Source: a bacterium
GTDB taxonomy: Bacteria > Joyebacterota > Joyebacteria > Joyebacterales > Joyebacteraceae
DNA length: 64,000 bases
NCBI GenBank assembly: GCA_025774935.1
Contig: JALGZK010000004.1
Coordinates: 189,654 to 253,653, forward strand
Direction of reading: 5' to 3'
A program made the position numbers and the translations under genes. Numbering within the stretch: the first letter of the stretch is position 1; every line of letters starts with the position of its first letter. The notes beneath the pieces were generated by a model. It was not told where the DNA came from. It saw nothing but the letters and a program-made list of their open reading frames with translations, and searched no databases. Of the stretch, positions 47,405 to 58,994 are shown one piece after another.

Positions 47405-50400
47405 ATGGCAAGAGATAACCGCGGCGACAGAGGCGCGATGCTGGTGTTCGCTTCTCTTCTGGTCGTGTTCGCGCTGGTTATCTGGGCCGTTCCTGTCGGC
47501 GCGTACTACTACGACACGGACGGTGACGGTCTGGAAGACTTCTTCGAGTCGAAGCACGGCATTCACGGCACCGTGAATGACGAGGGTGCAGACTGGGATG
47601 GTGACGGTCTGACCGACCTCGAAGAGGACGCGAACGGTAACGGCATCGTCGACATCGGGGAGACGGACCCGTACAACTACGATACCGACGGTGATGGCAT
47701 TAGCGACGGTATCGAGGGTCTTGAGGACAGCCCCGAGGATGCGGACACCCTCATCAACGCGCTCGACTGGGACTCCGACGGTGACTTTATTCCGGACACC
47801 GTCGAAGAGCAGATTCAGCCCGGTGATACCGAGCGTGACGGCGTCTACGAGGGCGTTGGCTCGAACGAGACCAACTGGCTCGCTGCCGACACGGACGGTG
47901 AGGGTCTCATCGACGGTTGGGAGGCCATGTGGGGCGCAGACCCGCAGATCCCGAACACCGACGATGACGGCTGGACCGACTGGGAGGAAGTCCAGTACGG
48001 CACCGACCCGAACGACGATGACACCGACAATGACGGTCGCTTCGACGGCGTCGGCAACGAGGACGAAGACGACGCGGACGGCGACGGCCAGATCAACGCC
48101 GTCGACTTCGACAGCGACAACGACGGTCTCATCGACGGCGATGAGGACATGAACGAGGACGGCGTCGTCGACGGCGGAGAGACGGATCCCGAGCTGTACG
48201 ACACCGACTCGGACGGCTACAGCGACGGCTACGAGATCTACGAGGCGTTGACCGACCCGCTCGACGGCGGGGTGGACGCCGACGGTGACGGATGGATGGA
48301 CGGCGAGGAGACGGTCATCTACAAGACCGATCCGAACGACGCCGACACCGACGGCGACAACATCACCGACACGATCGAGAACCCGCAGAACGACCCGGGG
48401 CTCGACACGGACGGCGATGACCTGATCGACGCGCTCGATCTCGACAGCGACAACGACGGTATCGACGACTCGGAGGAAGTCGCGTCTGGCGGAGACGGTT
48501 ACGTGACCGATCCGCTTCTCGTCGACACGGACGGCGACGGCCTGCCTGACGGAGCCGAGGTCTTCATCTTCGGGACCGACCCGACGGATGCGAACGACCC
48601 CTCGGACGGCGACGGCATCGAGCCCGGCGACGAGATCTACAGCTACGACACCAACTTCGACATGTCCGATACCGATGAGGACGGGGTGGACGAGGGGACG
48701 AGTGGCCAGACCGACCGGGTGAACCTCAACTCCGACGGAATCCGTTCAAGGCCGTACGACGACTCGAGCGTGAACGCGCTCGATGCGGACGCCGATGGTG
48801 ACGGTATCTGGGACGGAGACGAGGCCGGCTACGGCACGAACTTCACGGTCTGGGACACGGATGGTGACGGCCTCGACGATGGCGAAGAGGTCTACATCTG
48901 GGGTACCGATCCCACGGACCCGGACCACGATGACGACGGCCTCGAGGATGGTGACGAGGTCGCTCTCGGAACGGATCCTCTCGACGCGAACACGGACGAC
49001 GACTTCGTCGACGACGGCGTCGAGGTGAACTCCTGGGGTTCGGACCCACTCGATCCCGACACCGACGGTGACGGCATCCTGGACGGCGAGACCATCAACG
49101 GCACGTACGTCGATGGTGACGGCGCCACGCAGAACTGGTCCTTCACCGAGAACGACGTGGACCAGGAGCTCGGCGGCGACGGCCTCGCGAACGTGGTCGA
49201 CCCCGACTCCGACTGGAGAGAGTGGGAAGGCCCTCCGGGGGTCATCTACGTCGACTTCCACGACCGCGTCGAGATTGCGTACGAGGCTTACGTCACGGCC
49301 GCGGTCGCCCGGGGAGAGCGCTTCGTGATCGGACCGCTGAATCCCGGCGTTCCGGACACGGACGGCGACGGCGTCGCTGACGGTCAGGAGGTCGCGACCG
49401 GCTTCGACCCGCTCGACGCTCGGAGCTTCGGGACGATCGGCTACACGCCCTTCGACACCGATGGCGACCAGCTGTACGACCTGGAGGAGGCCGTGCTCGA
49501 GGGCACGACGCCTCCGACGATGCACCTGGTCGTCGACTTCGACGGCGACGGTCTCTGGGATGGCGACGAGCTCCACCCGAGCTGGTGGGACGAGGACGGC
49601 ATCCCCCAGACGTGGCCCACCAACCCGCTCATGGCCCACTCCGAGCAGGAGTACGGGTACCCGTGGCCGTATCACGACGGGATGAATGACGGGCAGGAGG
49701 TCGCTGCCGCACCGCCGAACGACACCAACCCGCACACCGTCGACACCGACGGCGACGGTCTCTGGGACGACGACGAGATCGGTTGGGGCTACAACCCGAC
49801 AGATCCCGACACGGACAGCGACCAGCTCTATGACGGGTTTGAGGATGCCGACGGCGACGGCGTTGTCGACGCGGGCGAGACCGACCCGCTCGACGGCGAC
49901 ACCGAGGACGACGGCATCTACGACGGTCCCGAGTGGATCTTCAACACCGACCCGCTCGACTTCGACACGGACGGTGACGGTCTCGGTGACGGACTCGAGG
50001 TCGGCTACGACGCCGGCAACATCGGTCCTGACACGGACGGTCTCACGTTCGGACCGGGCGACCAGGACACGGCGACGATGACGGACCCGCGTCTGGTCGA
50101 CAGCGACTTCGACGGGCTCGACGACGACGTCGAGGACGTGAACATGAACGGTGCTCTCGATCCGGGTGAGACGGATGCTCAGGATCGCGACACCGACGAC
50201 GATCACCTGCCCGACTACTACGAGGTTCCGGGCTGCGACCCGCTCATCCCTCCTGCTGACTACTACGCGGTGGGCTGGGTCGACAACTCGGCCGACGCGA
50301 CCGACCCCGAGCTGACCGATACCGACGGGGATGGTCTCGAGGACGACCTCGAGTTCGAGCAGATGGCCGACCCGTTGGTCATGGACTCCGACGGTGACTT

Positions 50401-53400
50401 GATCATCGACGGTGACGAGTACTACTCGTGGGAGACCGATCCGACGAATCCCGACACCGACAGTGACGGGTGTATGGAGTCGGACGCGGTGGTCCTCGAT
50501 CCGGATGACCTCACCGATCCTCTCGTGATCGAGAACGTCCGGACCGATGCAGACGGTGACGGCGCCCACAACGCGATGGACGTCGACAGCGACAACGACT
50601 GGACCTGGGACGGTGACGACGACGAGGACTGCGCCGGTGCCAACGACGCCGACGGCGACGGGGTCCCGGACATCCTGGATAACGACAGCGACAACGACAA
50701 CCTGTCCGACCGTCAGGAGATGGGTCTGAACACCTGGCACGTCTTCGCCGACAACGACCGTGACTGGGACGAGGATGGACTCCTCGACGGCGACGAGTAC
50801 TACCAGGTGCTCCACCAGCCCCACACCGGCGAGATCGGATTCAGGGCGTCGTCTCCGACGCTGTTCGACACGGACCGCGACACCTTCCACGACGGTTTCG
50901 AGCAGGGCATGGTCGGCCCGATTCCGATCGATCCGGTGTTCGGGGGCACGAACCCCGACCCGGCCCACTGGGACTTCGACGGCACGTCGAACTCGAACGT
51001 CTTCCTCTACGACTCCGACTACGACGGCCTCTGGGATCCCGACGAGGACGTGAATGCCGACGGTAACGACCTCGACATCACGGGCAACGTCGAGACCGAC
51101 CCCGAGGACGACGACACGGACGACGAGGGTCTCATCGACGGTTACGAGGTCTTGACGGCCGGTACCGACCCGCTCGTCTGCGACACCGACGTCGACGACC
51201 TCTCGGACGGCCTCGAGCACGGCCTCCTCGGCGCGATGGGGAGCGACACGTCGATCGCCAATCCGTGCCTCTCGAACCGGTACGACACGGTGGAGGACGG
51301 CGCCTACACGACCGACCCGCTGGACAACGACACCGATGGTGACACCCTGTGGGACGGTGCGGACGAGGACGTCGACTGGGACGGTTTCCGCGATGGGAAC
51401 GACCCGCACGACACGGACTCCGACTGGGGCTTCGGCGGCGAGACGGACCCGAACGTTGCGGACACCGACCGGGGTGGAGTGACGGACGATCTCGATGTGG
51501 ATCCGCTCCTCTACACGACGGGCGACTGGGACATCGACATCGATGACGACGATGCCGACGTCGTCGGGAACGTCCTGACGATCGGAACGCCGGGCGTGGG
51601 TATCGACCCCGGCTCGAACGACACCGGTCAGTTCGTGTTCTGGCACACCGACGGGGCGAACAACCCCGATCCTGGCGACGGTCCTTCGGCTGCGGCCGGC
51701 CCGATCGACGGGATCTACGTCGTGGCGACGTCGTTCCACTGGGTCGACGAGCTCAGCGGCGTGACCTACAGCGTGCCCGACACGAGCATGCTCCACTGGT
51801 TCCACTACAGCGAGCTCGGCTACGACCAGAGCTGGTTCGACGGTGTGGCCGTCGGCACGTCACGGACGGTCACCGTGACCGCGAACGTCCCCGAGGGTGC
51901 GATGCCCGGAATCTACATGGGCTACATCCAGGTGGAGACGACGCGCGCCATCGAGCAGGAGCTGCCGGACGACTGGGTTGAGGTCTGGGTCTACGTCTCG
52001 GCTGCGAAGGATCTCGACATCTGCGACGACGACGACGATCCGATCGGAGTCGGCCTGGCTTCCGACCCGCCGAACTTCGACGAGCCTGCCGCGATCGGCG
52101 AGATGCACCTCGTGGGTGCCCCGATGTGGCCCGGCGACATCGCCGGCATGTACAGGCTCGCGAACCCGAACACGAACCCCGACGGCGTGTGGCCGTGGCC
52201 TGGCGGAGCGCCCGACGGGATCAATGACTACAACTTCTTCCCGGCGATGCCGTGGATCGGGAGAGACTGGGATCTGAACACGTTCGATGCCCAGGGCAAC
52301 GTGAACCTGACCTACGACATCCGGGCGGAGTACTACTTCTCGAGCGGCCCGATGAACCCGACGGGCGTCATCGACTTCATGAACCCGCTGGCAAACGGGT
52401 TCGAGTTGGCGGAGGTCGACTCGTTCTGGCTCTACGTCGACACGACGACGCTGGTACGCGGGTTCTACGAGGGTACGGTGAGGGTGTTCGAGGACATCCC
52501 GCACTCGCCGTTCCCGCCGAACGGCACGTGGGATCCTGACGAGGTCTATGACGACTTCATCCTCAAGTTCCAGCTCATCCTGCCTGACCTCGACATCGAC
52601 GACGACTACGCGAACATGTCCGGGAACCACCTCATCATCGACGTCTTCCCGGGCGATGTTCAGGTCATGGTCGGTGAGATCGAGTACTGGTGTGCCAGCG
52701 CGGTCAACCCCGGGTCCAACGTCGACGCTGTCGACGGTCCGGGAGACGAGGACTTCCTGGACCTCCAGTTCTACGATACGGTCGACGATGAGCTGATCCA
52801 CATCCCGCAGGACGGCACCGTGCCGCCGGTGGTCTTCGATCTCTGGAACCCGACGGCGACGCAGTCCATCGAGGCCACGATCGACGGCCTCATGGGCGAC
52901 GGTCTGCCCGAGGGCGAGGCGAAGAGGCTCAGGCTCCAGATTCCGGAGGTTCCCGCGAATCTGCCGGCCGGCACCTACCGCCCGCTCAACGTGGCAGGCT
53001 GGATCCCCGGCGACGGCACTGTCAACATCACCGCCAGGGGTGTCTCCACGGGTCTCGGAGACGTCACCATCCTTCAGCAGGACTACAGCCCGAACGACGG
53101 TTCCGAGGCCGGCATGGGACCGGGTGTCGTTTACGACCCGGACATCGATGCGGTCGCGGAGCTGATGGACTACTTCCACCTGACGGTCAACGTCATGGCC
53201 GTGATCTCGGTCGAGTGGGACGACGCCGGTTGGGCGGAAGACGGTCTCCCGGGCACGGTTGTCTGTGCTGAGGCGACGGTGAACAACACCGGGAACTTCG
53301 AGGTCAACGACGTGCACTTCGAGTCCTCGGCTCTCATCGGCGAGACCTACGGCGGGATCATCCCGGCCGTGGCGGTCGGCTTCGACCCCTCGGGTCTGTC

Positions 53401-54529
53401 GATTCCGTACAACGAGTCCGATGACGTCAACATCTGCGTGGTCATCCCCGAGGATATGCGGGCCGATGACTACACGGGCTCCATCTCGCTCTTCGCGGAC
53501 GGGAACACGCTCTTCGACGAGCTGCCGTTCACGATCACGGTCCTGCCGGTTCCGGCGATGGAGATCTCGGACAATGCGTACAACGTCGTCGGCAACGTGA
53601 TGACGCTGGCGCCCGAGCCCGGCTGGATGAGGTCTGACTCCGGCCTCTTCGAGATCGTGAACCTCGGCAACGACGACCTGGGCGACATCATGGCTCTCGA
53701 TGTCGCAGGGCTGCCTGATGGCCTCGACGTTACGGTCGAGGTGCCTGAGACCATCGACTACGACGAGTCCGACACTGGCCTCGTGACGGTCGAGTGGACC
53801 GACGGCGCAGTCATTGCCGGTACGCACACGGCGTACGTGGTTGTCACCGCCGAGGAAGGGACTCTCGAGGACTCGTTCACCCTCGACATCATCATCGCGG
53901 AGATTCCGGCCGCGGAGTTCGAGGACGAGGAGATCGAGTTCGAAGGCATGGCGGGTGAGATGCTCGAGTCGGGCTTCACGGTGAACAACATCGGGAACAC
54001 CGACATCACCGAGGGTCTCGCGTTCGTCGTGACCGATCTCGAGGGCGAGACCGGCTCGTACATTTCGAGCGACAACATCGTGATCGATCCTCCCACCGCG
54101 GTCATTCCGTACGCCGACTACTACGACTTCGACATCGCCGTCAGCGTGCCCGCGGAGCTGCTCGCCCAGATGTACGAGGGTGAGATCAGCGTCTTCATCG
54201 GCAACGAGGAGTGGGACACGATCCCGATCACGGTGATGCTCGCGATGGGCGACGGTGAGATCGTGATGTACCCGAACCCCTACCGCGACGCGGTGCATGA
54301 CGGGGGCGTGACGATCGCTGTCGGAACTGAGTCCGACAACGTCACGGTCAACGTCTACGACATGTACGGCGCGAAGGTGGCGGAGATCGGAAGCAGCGGC
54401 GGGCGCCACACGGAGCTCGTCTGGGATCTCACGAACGACGACGGCAAGAGCGTGACGAGTGGCATGTACGTCGTCACGGTTGACACCGGCGACAAGGTCA
54501 CAACGCGGAAGATCATGGTCATCAGGTAA
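47405..54529 (+). CDS. Giant exported TSP3 calcium-repeat protein with C-terminal sorting domain
   Basis: The 2374-residue protein starts with a hydrophobic export signal (MLVFASLLVVFALVIWAVPV, residues 12-31). Residues about 35-1360 are several dozen thrombospondin type 3-like repeats (DTDGDGLEDFFE, DWDGDGLTDLEED, DADGDGWMDGEE), dense in Asp and expected to bind many Ca2+ ions and form an elongated stalk. About 1370-2280 are beta-rich, Ig/choice-of-anchor-like modules with repeated VEVPETIDYDESDTGLVTVE-type strands. From about 2280, MYPNPYRDAVHDGGVTIAVG through VNVYDMYGAKVAEI and SGMYVVTVDTGDKVTTRKI is a FlgD/type IX-like sorting domain. Very low in Lys and Arg. It probably is an adhesin or S-layer-like protein. 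A PorV-like gene follows. Confidence 0.88.
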   Translation: MARDNRGDRGAMLVFASLLVVFALVIWAVPVGAYYYDTDGDGLEDFFESKHGIHGTVNDEGADWDGDGLTDLEEDANGNGIVDIGETDPYNYDTDGDGISDGIEGLEDSPEDADTLINALDWDSDGDFIPDTVEEQIQPGDTERDGVYEGVGSNETNWLAADTDGEGLIDGWEAMWGADPQIPNTDDDGWTDWEEVQYGTDPNDDDTDNDGRFDGVGNEDEDDADGDGQINAVDFDSDNDGLIDGDEDMNEDGVVDGGETDPELYDTDSDGYSDGYEIYEALTDPLDGGVDADGDGWMDGEETVIYKTDPNDADTDGDNITDTIENPQNDPGLDTDGDDLIDALDLDSDNDGIDDSEEVASGGDGYVTDPLLVDTDGDGLPDGAEVFIFGTDPTDANDPSDGDGIEPGDEIYSYDTNFDMSDTDEDGVDEGTSGQTDRVNLNSDGIRSRPYDDSSVNALDADADGDGIWDGDEAGYGTNFTVWDTDGDGLDDGEEVYIWGTDPTDPDHDDDGLEDGDEVALGTDPLDANTDDDFVDDGVEVNSWGSDPLDPDTDGDGILDGETINGTYVDGDGATQNWSFTENDVDQELGGDGLANVVDPDSDWREWEGPPGVIYVDFHDRVEIAYEAYVTAAVARGERFVIGPLNPGVPDTDGDGVADGQEVATGFDPLDARSFGTIGYTPFDTDGDQLYDLEEAVLEGTTPPTMHLVVDFDGDGLWDGDELHPSWWDEDGIPQTWPTNPLMAHSEQEYGYPWPYHDGMNDGQEVAAAPPNDTNPHTVDTDGDGLWDDDEIGWGYNPTDPDTDSDQLYDGFEDADGDGVVDAGETDPLDGDTEDDGIYDGPEWIFNTDPLDFDTDGDGLGDGLEVGYDAGNIGPDTDGLTFGPGDQDTATMTDPRLVDSDFDGLDDDVEDVNMNGALDPGETDAQDRDTDDDHLPDYYEVPGCDPLIPPADYYAVGWVDNSADATDPELTDTDGDGLEDDLEFEQMADPLVMDSDGDLIIDGDEYYSWETDPTNPDTDSDGCMESDAVVLDPDDLTDPLVIENVRTDADGDGAHNAMDVDSDNDWTWDGDDDEDCAGANDADGDGVPDILDNDSDNDNLSDRQEMGLNTWHVFADNDRDWDEDGLLDGDEYYQVLHQPHTGEIGFRASSPTLFDTDRDTFHDGFEQGMVGPIPIDPVFGGTNPDPAHWDFDGTSNSNVFLYDSDYDGLWDPDEDVNADGNDLDITGNVETDPEDDDTDDEGLIDGYEVLTAGTDPLVCDTDVDDLSDGLEHGLLGAMGSDTSIANPCLSNRYDTVEDGAYTTDPLDNDTDGDTLWDGADEDVDWDGFRDGNDPHDTDSDWGFGGETDPNVADTDRGGVTDDLDVDPLLYTTGDWDIDIDDDDADVVGNVLTIGTPGVGIDPGSNDTGQFVFWHTDGANNPDPGDGPSAAAGPIDGIYVVATSFHWVDELSGVTYSVPDTSMLHWFHYSELGYDQSWFDGVAVGTSRTVTVTANVPEGAMPGIYMGYIQVETTRAIEQELPDDWVEVWVYVSAAKDLDICDDDDDPIGVGLASDPPNFDEPAAIGEMHLVGAPMWPGDIAGMYRLANPNTNPDGVWPWPGGAPDGINDYNFFPAMPWIGRDWDLNTFDAQGNVNLTYDIRAEYYFSSGPMNPTGVIDFMNPLANGFELAEVDSFWLYVDTTTLVRGFYEGTVRVFEDIPHSPFPPNGTWDPDEVYDDFILKFQLILPDLDIDDDYANMSGNHLIIDVFPGDVQVMVGEIEYWCASAVNPGSNVDAVDGPGDEDFLDLQFYDTVDDELIHIPQDGTVPPVVFDLWNPTATQSIEATIDGLMGDGLPEGEAKRLRLQIPEVPANLPAGTYRPLNVAGWIPGDGTVNITARGVSTGLGDVTILQQDYSPNDGSEAGMGPGVVYDPDIDAVAELMDYFHLTVNVMAVISVEWDDAGWAEDGLPGTVVCAEATVNNTGNFEVNDVHFESSALIGETYGGIIPAVAVGFDPSGLSIPYNESDDVNICVVIPEDMRADDYTGSISLFADGNTLFDELPFTITVLPVPAMEISDNAYNVVGNVMTLAPEPGWMRSDSGLFEIVNLGNDDLGDIMALDVAGLPDGLDVTVEVPETIDYDESDTGLVTVEWTDGAVIAGTHTAYVVVTAEEGTLEDSFTLDIIIAEIPAAEFEDEEIEFEGMAGEMLESGFTVNNIGNTDITEGLAFVVTDLEGETGSYISSDNIVIDPPTAVIPYADYYDFDIAVSVPAELLAQMYEGEISVFIGNEEWDTIPITVMLAMGDGEIVMYPNPYRDAVHDGGVTIAVGTESDNVTVNVYDMYGAKVAEIGSSGGRHTELVWDLTNDDGKSVTSGMYVVTVDTGDKVTTRKIMVIR

Positions 54530-55715: not shown

Positions 55716-56108
55716 ATGACGGACGACCAACTCATTCAGGAAGCCAGGACGGCGATCGGGAACGCGTACGCTCCCTATTCGGGGTTCTCGGTCGGGGCCG
55801 CGCTCCTTGCGAGCGACGGGCGCGTCTTCACCGGCGTCAACGTCGAGAACGCGTCGGTCGGGCTCTCGGTCTGCGCGGAGCGGAACGCGATCGCGAAGGC
55901 CGTCTCGGAGGGCGCGAGGGAGTTCGAGAAGATGGCGATCGTGACGAACTCCGACGAGCCGACTATGCCGTGCGGCGTCTGCAGGCAGGTGATCTGGGAG
56001 TTCTCGCAGGACCTCCCCATCCTGATCGAGGCGTCGGGCGGGTCGCGGGTCGCCACGACGATCGCCGAGCTGTTCCCGCATCCGTTCACCACGTACCGCC
56101 AGCCTTAG
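55716..56108 (+). CDS. cdd: Cytidine deaminase
   Basis: The 130-residue tetrameric zinc enzyme deaminates cytidine and deoxycytidine to (deoxy)uridine. The catalytic motif is CAERNAIAKAV (one zinc ligand Cys and the proton-shuttling Glu), and the other zinc ligands are in MPCGVCRQVIWEF (P-C-x2-C). The start region YAPYSGFSVGAALLASDGRV is standard. The ATG lies after GGGAGAGG with a longish spacer. The gene starts a four-gene run, cdd-rpiB-deoC-deoA, for pyrimidine nucleoside breakdown. Confidence 0.97.
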   Translation: MTDDQLIQEARTAIGNAYAPYSGFSVGAALLASDGRVFTGVNVENASVGLSVCAERNAIAKAVSEGAREFEKMAIVTNSDEPTMPCGVCRQVIWEFSQDLPILIEASGGSRVATTIAELFPHPFTTYRQP

Positions 56109-56136: not shown

Positions 56137-56679
56137 GTGGACGTCGATCGCGACAAGATCGAGAGGGTAGTGCGGGAGGTCCTGAGCGACGTCGAGGCGG
56201 GTCACCAGCCGGACCTCGACGCCGACTCCTCCGGTGACCTCGTCGCCATCGGCGCCGACCACGGGGGCTACCGTCTCAAGGAGACGCTCAAGCAGTATCT
56301 CACCGAGGAGTTGGGCTACCGGGTCCTCGACGTCGGCACCACGAGCGAGGCGTCGTGCGACTATCCGGACTTCGCGGTCCGGGTGGCGAGAGCGGTCGCC
56401 AGCGGCGAGGCCTGGCGCGGCATCATGATCGACGGCGCCGGCATTGGTTCGTCCATGGCGGCGAACAAGGTCCCGGGCGTCCTCGCCGCGTGCTGCCACG
56501 ACGTCAGGACGGTCGTGAACAGCCGGGAGCACAACGCCGCGAACGTCCTCACCCTGGGGTCGGGTGTCGTCGGCAGGGGGCTCGCGCGGCAGATGGTGCG
56601 CGTGTGGCTCTCGACCGAGTTCGGGGGCGGTCGACACGAGCGGCGCGTTTCGAAGATCCTCACTCTGGAGAAGGAATGA
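56137..56679 (+). CDS. rpiB: RpiB/LacA/LacB-family sugar-phosphate isomerase with N-terminal targeting-like helix
   Basis: The 180-residue protein matches ribose-5-phosphate isomerase B, which interconverts ribose-5-P and ribulose-5-[19 protein letters not shown] from about 38, [33 protein letters not shown], and [14 protein letters not shown]. The position of the usual catalytic Cys (CGTGIG) is D99 (DGAGIG), so the base may differ. Residues 1-22 are an extra amphipathic helix ([16 protein letters not shown]) and residues 21-33 a linker, absent from ordinary RpiB. A similar helix begins the next protein, DeoC, which resembles microcompartment encapsulation peptides. Start GTG; the stop overlaps the deoC ATG (ATGA at 56676). 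Confidence 0.9.
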
Positions 56680-57581
56680 ACAGGGACGAACTTATCGCGC
56701 GTGTGACCCGCGAGGTCATCTCACGCCTCGAGGCCGACCGGGCGCGCGCGTCGGCGGTGACCGGGGCCGCGACGGCCGTCGGGGCCGCACCGGTCGCCGG
56801 GACCGCGGCTCCCGGTACCTGCGAGCCTTGCGTGGCCTGCGGTCTCTGCGTTCAGCGCCGTCCCGCCGATGTCGACTCGATCATCACGTCGGGGGCCTCG
56901 AGGATCAGCGCCGCGTCCGGCGTGGCCCCCGTCGACGGACCTCTGGCATCGATGATCGACCACACGCTCCTGAAGCCGCAGGCGACCAGGGACGAGGTCG
57001 TGCGGCTGTGCGAGGAGGCGAAGCGGCACGGGTTCGCCTCGGTGTGCATCAACCCGACGTACGTCTCACTGTCGGCTCAGCTCCTTCGTCTCTCCAACGT
57101 CAAGGTCTGCACGGTCGTCGGGTTCCCGCTCGGGGCGAACAGGCCGGACGTCAAGGCCTTCGAGACCGAGCACGCCATCGCAGACGGCGCCCAGGAGATC
57201 GACATGGTCGCCAACATCGGGGCCATGAAGTCGGGCGACCGCGAGCTCGTGGAGCGTGACGTCCGGGCGGTCGTCGACGCGTGCCGGAACATCGTCGTGT
57301 CCAAGGTCATCATCGAGGCGGCTCTCCTGAACGACGACGAGAAGGTGGCCATCTGCCGGATCGTGAAGGCCGCCGGAGCCGACTTCGTCAAGACCTCCAC
57401 CGGCTTCGGTCCGGGGGGCGCCACTCCGCACGACGTGGCCCTCATGAGGGCCGCCGTAGGAGAGGAGATGGGCGTCAAGGCCGCGGGAGGAATACGCGAC
57501 CTCGAGACTGCGCGGGAGATGATCGCGGCGGGCGCCACGAGGATCGGTGCGAGCGCGAGCGTGAAGATCGTCGGGGGATAG
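56676..57581 (+). CDS. deoC: Deoxyribose-phosphate aldolase with N-terminal targeting-like helix and Cys cluster
   Basis: The 301-residue protein contains a complete DeoC TIM barrel from about residue 88 ([18 protein letters not shown]). It splits 2-deoxyribose-5-P into acetaldehyde and glyceraldehyde-3-P. The Schiff-base lysine is K210 in [12 protein letters not shown], the second lysine K239 in FVKTSTGF, and the acid is in EIDMVANIG. Ahead of the barrel are a helix, [20 protein letters not shown], an Ala/Gly/Pro linker (about 23-48) and a four-cysteine run C49-x2-C52-x2-C55-x2-C58. Ordinary DeoC has none of these. The helix resembles that of RpiB upstream. Translation is coupled to rpiB. 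Confidence 0.95.

Positions 57582-57689: not shown

Positions 57690-58994
<1,305 letters not shown>

Follow-up and report, generated by a model that had tools for sequence, protein, structure and literature searches.

The locus analysed here raises the question of why RpiB and DeoC, encoded side by side in a nucleoside-salvage cluster, both begin with an amphipathic helix resembling the encapsulation peptides (EPs) of bacterial microcompartments (BMCs). The window (the whole 64,000-nucleotide stretch that was analysed) lies on contig C14 of a genome of the Candidatus Eisenbacteria lineage, and matches to the shell families PF00936 and PF03319 are found nowhere on this contig; all those in the genome are on contig C1.

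The cdd-rpiB-deoC-deoA cluster and its extensions

The cluster comprises four genes on the forward (+) strand, the order of which is conserved among relatives. The first, cdd (55716..56108), encodes a cytidine deaminase, the translation of which starts MTDDQLIQEARTAIGNAYAPYSGFSVGAALL. It is followed by rpiB (56137..56679, GTG start), a BMC-type, N-terminally extended paralogue of 180 residues, and by deoC (56676..57581), a deoxyribose-phosphate aldolase of 301 residues with an N-terminal extension of ~89 residues, the ATG of which overlaps the rpiB stop codon as ATGA. The last gene, deoA (57690..58994), encodes a pyrimidine-nucleoside/thymidine phosphorylase (PRK05820, 4e-158; TIGR02644, 2e-154). 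The earlier coordinates of RpiB and DeoC were correct to within one base. Elsewhere in the window, a 2374-aa ORF (47405-54529) is composed mostly of D-x-D-G-D-G repeats and ends with a C-terminal sorting-like region; from its sequence, it is likely a secreted calcium-binding repeat protein.

Family models cover RpiB from residue 36 only (PF02502, 5e-54, residues 36-174) and DeoC from residue 90-93 only (TIGR00126, 6e-85, residues 90-298; PF01791). Solved DERA structures also align to DeoC from residue 90 onward, and together with the family models they delineate its TIM-barrel core (56943..57578). Ahead of these cores, RpiB possesses an EP-like helix (56146..56193) and a cysteine-free linker (56194..56238), while DeoC possesses an EP-like helix (56679..56732) and a linker harboring a cluster of four cysteines (residues 49-58, 56820..56849; see below). 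In the AlphaFold2 model of DeoC, residues 3-29 form a helix that leads through a low-confidence linker into the barrel; the mean pLDDT is 93 for residues 1-10, 91 for residues 11-20, and 72 for residues 21-30. The RpiB helix (residues 5-20) is predicted at low confidence, with a pLDDT near 55 and a shallow alignment of 12 sequences. Both proteins fit the EP pattern, in which a terminal amphipathic helix of ~18 residues is attached to the cargo through a flexible linker, RpiB at that low confidence. Ungapped BLOSUM62 comparison of the RpiB and DeoC helix segments yields a score of 40, against 17.8 +/- 3.9 for shuffled segments (p<=0.0005). The earlier note had drawn attention to the similarity of these amphipathic helices and their linkers, and both the scores and the limits of the family cores confirm it.

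A shell locus on another contig and the distribution of the helices

The BMC locus is found at ~272.7-279.4 kb of C1, in the order PduL, BMC-H, BMC-H, BMC-P, AldDH, PduS/RnfC-like, BMC-T, BMC-P, BMC-P, and class II aldolase. The shell set therefore includes two BMC-H, one double-domain BMC-T, and three BMC-P; the shell genes, PduL, and acylating AldDH that had been predicted to lie elsewhere in the genome are all present there. The BMC-T is PduT-like: it has tandem BMC domains and a pore cysteine in an ICPGK motif that aligns with PDB 3pac, its best PDB matches being the PduT structures 3nwg, 3pac, and 3n79. This pore cysteine is presumably the PduT cysteine that coordinates a 4Fe-4S cluster. 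Coordination of such a cluster by a PduT cysteine has been reported (Axen 2014, PMC4207490).

Three enzymes of the C1 locus also carry terminal helices: PduL has an EP-like N-terminus, VDDVERIAREVIRRLEGD, AldDH an N-terminal helix segment, TFETIVGRVVGELQSR, and the class II aldolase a C-terminal one, EDIIRAVVAEVEKAMGKG. The matches of this aldolase do not single out one substrate. In the same ungapped comparison with shuffles, the DeoC segment scores best with that of PduL (47 against 17.7). Weaker scores are obtained for the AldDH-DeoC pair (25 against 14.9, p 0.013) and the aldolase-RpiB pair (34 against 17.6, p 0.0035), and some pairs, such as PduL-AldDH, do not reach significance.

A profile was built from 45 EPs of DeoC, RpiB, and AldDH encoded in the BMC loci of other phyla, excluding all sequences of the family studied here, and was searched against 980 ORFs from the window and part of C1. 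The five cargo proteins rank high, with RpiB first, PduL second, DeoC fourth, AldDH sixth, and the class II aldolase eighth (hypergeometric probability about 7.5e-12), their single E-values being weak, from 0.014 to 4.1 (RpiB 0.014, DeoC 0.54). This broader profile was chosen after, and because, a profile made from PduL EPs only had missed RpiB (E 4.8) and DeoC (E 9.5), neither of them significant, and retrieved PduL itself (2e-10). When the foreign EPs are used by enzyme, those of DeoC rank DeoC second and RpiB fifth with weak E-values, those of AldDH place RpiB first (E 0.0027), and those of RpiB pick out none of the five proteins. A whole-genome search with the family's own EP alignment returned DeoC, RpiB, and PduL alone below E 0.01; being circular, it was discarded as evidence of targeting.

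Twenty genomes of the phylum, belonging to one family and eight genera, were compared. PF00936 matches occur in 16 of them, and a tagged DeoC is encoded beside a tagged RpiB in 15 genomes from 6 genera, including that of the window. In these 15 genomes, the helix residues are conserved while the linker lengths drift. A second RpiB copy, devoid of the helix, is found in 17/20 genomes (on contig C21 of genome G000, for example). The presence of the helices in shell-less relatives had been named as a result that would argue against encapsulation, and the outcome is divided. Genome G019 (97% complete) has no PF00936 match and no second RpiB, and its locus is reduced to cdd-deoC-deoA, with a helix-less deoC starting 15 bases after cdd and no rpiB between them. 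In contrast, G003 (96% complete, 510 contigs) encodes both tagged enzymes, yet neither PF00936 nor AldDH is matched anywhere in its assembly; here, an assembly gap and a loss are indistinguishable. With this one exception, the helices are present on the BMC-associated copies and absent from their non-shell counterparts. DeoC went unmatched in two BMC-positive genomes, G011 and G016 (100% complete), and is therefore dispensable for the BMC of this family.

Beyond the phylum, a genome collection scanned with the DeoC alignment gave 80 loci, of which 64 belong to genomes with PF00936. Such a match accompanies 62/65 extended DeoCs versus 2/15 unextended ones (Fisher 2e-10, the 80 loci counted by hand), a p-value that overstates independence since the search favored loci resembling its extended query, the unextended 15 are almost all Bacillus-like, and the loci are not phylogenetically independent. 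In 27 BMC genomes, the flanking DNA examined around the extended DeoC contains no shell gene; for at least 17 of these, none is found within 3-8 kb, with at least 3 kb covered on each side, so that surveys anchored on shell genes would miss them. In SPU-type loci of other phyla, an extended DeoC, often with an extended RpiB, sits beside the shell genes.

Several loci of this survey have features of their own. A deltaproteobacterial locus (L079:8001-9539) places both aldolases in one BMC: besides DeoC, RpiB, AldDH, PduS, and shell genes, it encodes a class II aldolase whose C-terminus bears an EP-like helix. In the BMC-type RpiBs of the loci L091, L102, L126, and L140, an 'xTPLAxxxAxER' motif marks an N-terminal segment that replaces the simple EP. 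A full BMC locus is found in CP070760.1, labelled Candidatus Heimdallarchaeota archaeon (L113:181-10046), with PduL, AldDH, PduS, BMC-T, RpiB, BMC-P, DeoC, and an ORF read as a probable acetate kinase; a second Heimdallarchaeota genome, CP070665.1 (L154), combines a single PF00936 match with a DeoC gene. Among the papers searched, none names both 'Heimdallarchaeota' and 'bacterial microcompartment'.

Proposed encapsulation and its alternatives

The reading favored from these sequence comparisons, with a probability of about 0.88, is that RpiB and DeoC are EP-tagged cargo of a metabolosome whose shell and core enzymes are encoded elsewhere in the genome. The helix-less second RpiB, the helix-less DeoC of G019, and the cross-phylum EP ranks serve as controls that support targeting. 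The interpretation of the helices as EPs, put forward in the earlier note, is thus supported by the C1 shell locus, the helix-less counterparts, and the EP profile.

Two other explanations were considered. EP-like helices are generic amphipathic helices, and those of RpiB and DeoC might be oligomerisation or solubility extensions that hold the two enzymes together in the cytosol, independently of any shell. The weak E-values of the single peptides and the helices of G003, in which no shell was detected, would fit such a role, which is nevertheless improbable: the second RpiB copy lacks the helix, as does the syntenic DeoC of shell-less G019, the proteins of the shell locus bear similar helices, the DeoC extension tracks BMC presence across phyla, and many other phyla encode an extended DeoC inside shell loci. 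The tags might also be relics of enzymes that left the BMC locus and are now mainly cytosolic, within a nucleoside-salvage operon. The position of the genes in a salvage cluster, the existence of BMC genomes devoid of DeoC, and again G003 point in this direction; against it stand the helix residues, which 15 genomes from 6 genera have kept while the linker lengths drifted, and the at least 17 extended DeoC loci of BMC genomes with no shell gene nearby, which suggest a stable arrangement. A relic origin is accordingly considered very unlikely.

If RpiB and DeoC are indeed cargo, their N-terminal amphipathic helices would bring them into the shell encoded on C1. There, DeoC would give glyceraldehyde-3-phosphate and acetaldehyde, the latter being converted into acetyl-CoA and acetyl-phosphate via AldDH and PduL. 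Electrons could leave through PduS and the PduT-like shell protein, such pairs having been proposed as an electron exit (PMC4207490), and the class II aldolase would supply this lumen with a second sugar phosphate that gives rise to an aldehyde. The earlier suggestion of a route from pyrimidine nucleosides to an encapsulated DeoC has a gap, because a search across the genome found no DeoB-type phosphopentomutase; DeoB was thus rejected as the enzyme that would connect deoA with DeoC. The genome encodes two proteins of the PGM/PMM family.

A cysteine cluster between the tag and the aldolase

The Cx2Cx2Cx2C cluster of the DeoC linker is kept in four genera of the family (g1, g2, g3, and g7), apart from a cysteine missing in genome G007, and is absent from g4 and g5. 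Across many phyla, four cysteines within 19 residues are found in 43/63 extended DeoCs, when clusters of four would be expected in ~1% of extensions at the cysteine frequency of the barrel itself. Their spacing varies by lineage (Cx2Cx3Cx3C, Cx3Cx4Cx3C, Cx2Cx2Cx2C, and others). In the loci of the family, a CxxCGxC motif also precedes the C-terminal helix of the class II aldolase in 14/14 tails. The EP-plus-linker segments of the other cargo contain no cysteine in RpiB (30 family entries, some genomes being counted twice), none in AldDH (15 entries), and seven in PduL (15 entries), some of these seven being at residues that may lie ahead of the true start. In one Chloroflexi genome, both aldolases have such a motif, CVSCGLC in DeoC (L083) and CVACGLC in the class II enzyme (L178). 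Two other Chloroflexi class II aldolases, L175 and L176, have CEQCGVC and CAQCGVC tails that are followed by no EP-like helix, and the motif can therefore occur without an EP.

Judged from sequence, the cluster most likely forms, on both aldolases, a small element that holds a metal (Fe-S or Zn) or a disulfide. Chances are even that this module, placed between EP and enzyme on two unrelated aldolase folds, is a conserved and so far undescribed metal or redox element of sugar-phosphate metabolosomes. Some carboxysome assembly proteins use cysteines as a disulfide switch, and the cluster might tentatively be viewed as such a redox switch, responding to an oxidising lumen, rather than as a metal site. 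Disulfides would tolerate the wide variation in spacing among lineages, and neither Fer4 nor any other Pfam Fe-S model matches the DeoC extension of the window. The frequent grouping of four cysteines within 19 residues and the recurrence of CxxCGxC argue instead for a metal, as does the DeoC of genome G017, the only one in the family with the full ferredoxin-type CxxCxxCxxxCP motif, which resembles that of [4Fe-4S] ferredoxins.

The claim that the cluster is new extends to the papers searched: the word 'cysteine' is absent from the main texts of Sutter 2021 (PMC8217296) and of the 2025 EP-condensation paper, and the cysteine passages of Axen 2014 (PMC4207490) concern AldDH and PduT. EP linkers have been reported as poorly conserved and disordered (PMC12339742), a picture from which a recurrent cysteine cluster in the linkers of two aldolases departs. 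If the module is indeed such a metal or redox element, it would couple the assembly or activity of the aldolases to the lumen's redox state.

Place among known BMC types

The pairing of DeoC (PF01791) with RpiB (PF02502) is shared with SPU BMC subtypes 1-7 (Axen 2014, PMC4207490; Sutter 2021, PMC8217296), as are AldDH, the extended DeoC, and the inferred acetaldehyde chemistry. The SPU pair belongs to the BMC locus, whereas here it is encoded on C14, apart from the shell genes and among those of nucleoside salvage, and a class II aldolase occupies the main locus on C1. The SPU assignment made in the earlier note therefore holds in part: DeoC, RpiB, and AldDH do occur in a shell-bearing genome, but the C1 locus itself is not SPU. 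Similarly, the cluster had been termed a satellite cargo locus, and it does lack shell genes; satellite loci, however, include by definition shell proteins, with or without enzymes (Sutter 2021, PMC8217296), and the C14 cluster is therefore better described as a shell-less "cargo-only locus".

In content, the C1 locus is closest to the SPU-like locus of Latescibacteria (Axen 2014), with which it shares AldDH, PduL, PduS, and a class II aldolase. The latescibacterial locus also holds an RpiB-like gene and an acetate kinase, whereas here rpiB lies on another contig, beside the gene of a tagged DeoC. Latescibacterota and Eisenbacteria have been reported to share a common deep root (PMC11323493). 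Genomes with HO-type BMCs, in which an EP-bearing PF01791 aldolase is unlinked (Sutter 2021, PMC8217296), are a precedent for an EP-tagged DeoC located away from the shell locus; there, the aldolase alone is mentioned, with no cysteine cluster, whereas here both RpiB and DeoC are tagged and sit beside cdd and deoA. The PF00596 aldolase is shared with the class II aldolase BMCs PVM, ACI, and GRM5, a C-terminal EP being stated for that of ACI (Sutter 2021, PMC8217296). Unlike in these types, CxxCGxC precedes the aldolase C-terminal helix (14/14), and an unlinked DeoC/RpiB pair is present. What is new is the arrangement, in which a salvage cluster devoid of shell genes encodes the two signature enzymes of SPU and the unlinked main locus has another aldolase, and the cysteine cluster shared by the two aldolases.

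BMC surveys begin at shell genes and their neighbours, and cargo encoded elsewhere is therefore missed. Here, such cargo can be read from its tag. Since extended DeoCs recur at a distance from shell genes in many lineages, the metabolic scope of known BMCs has probably been under-counted.
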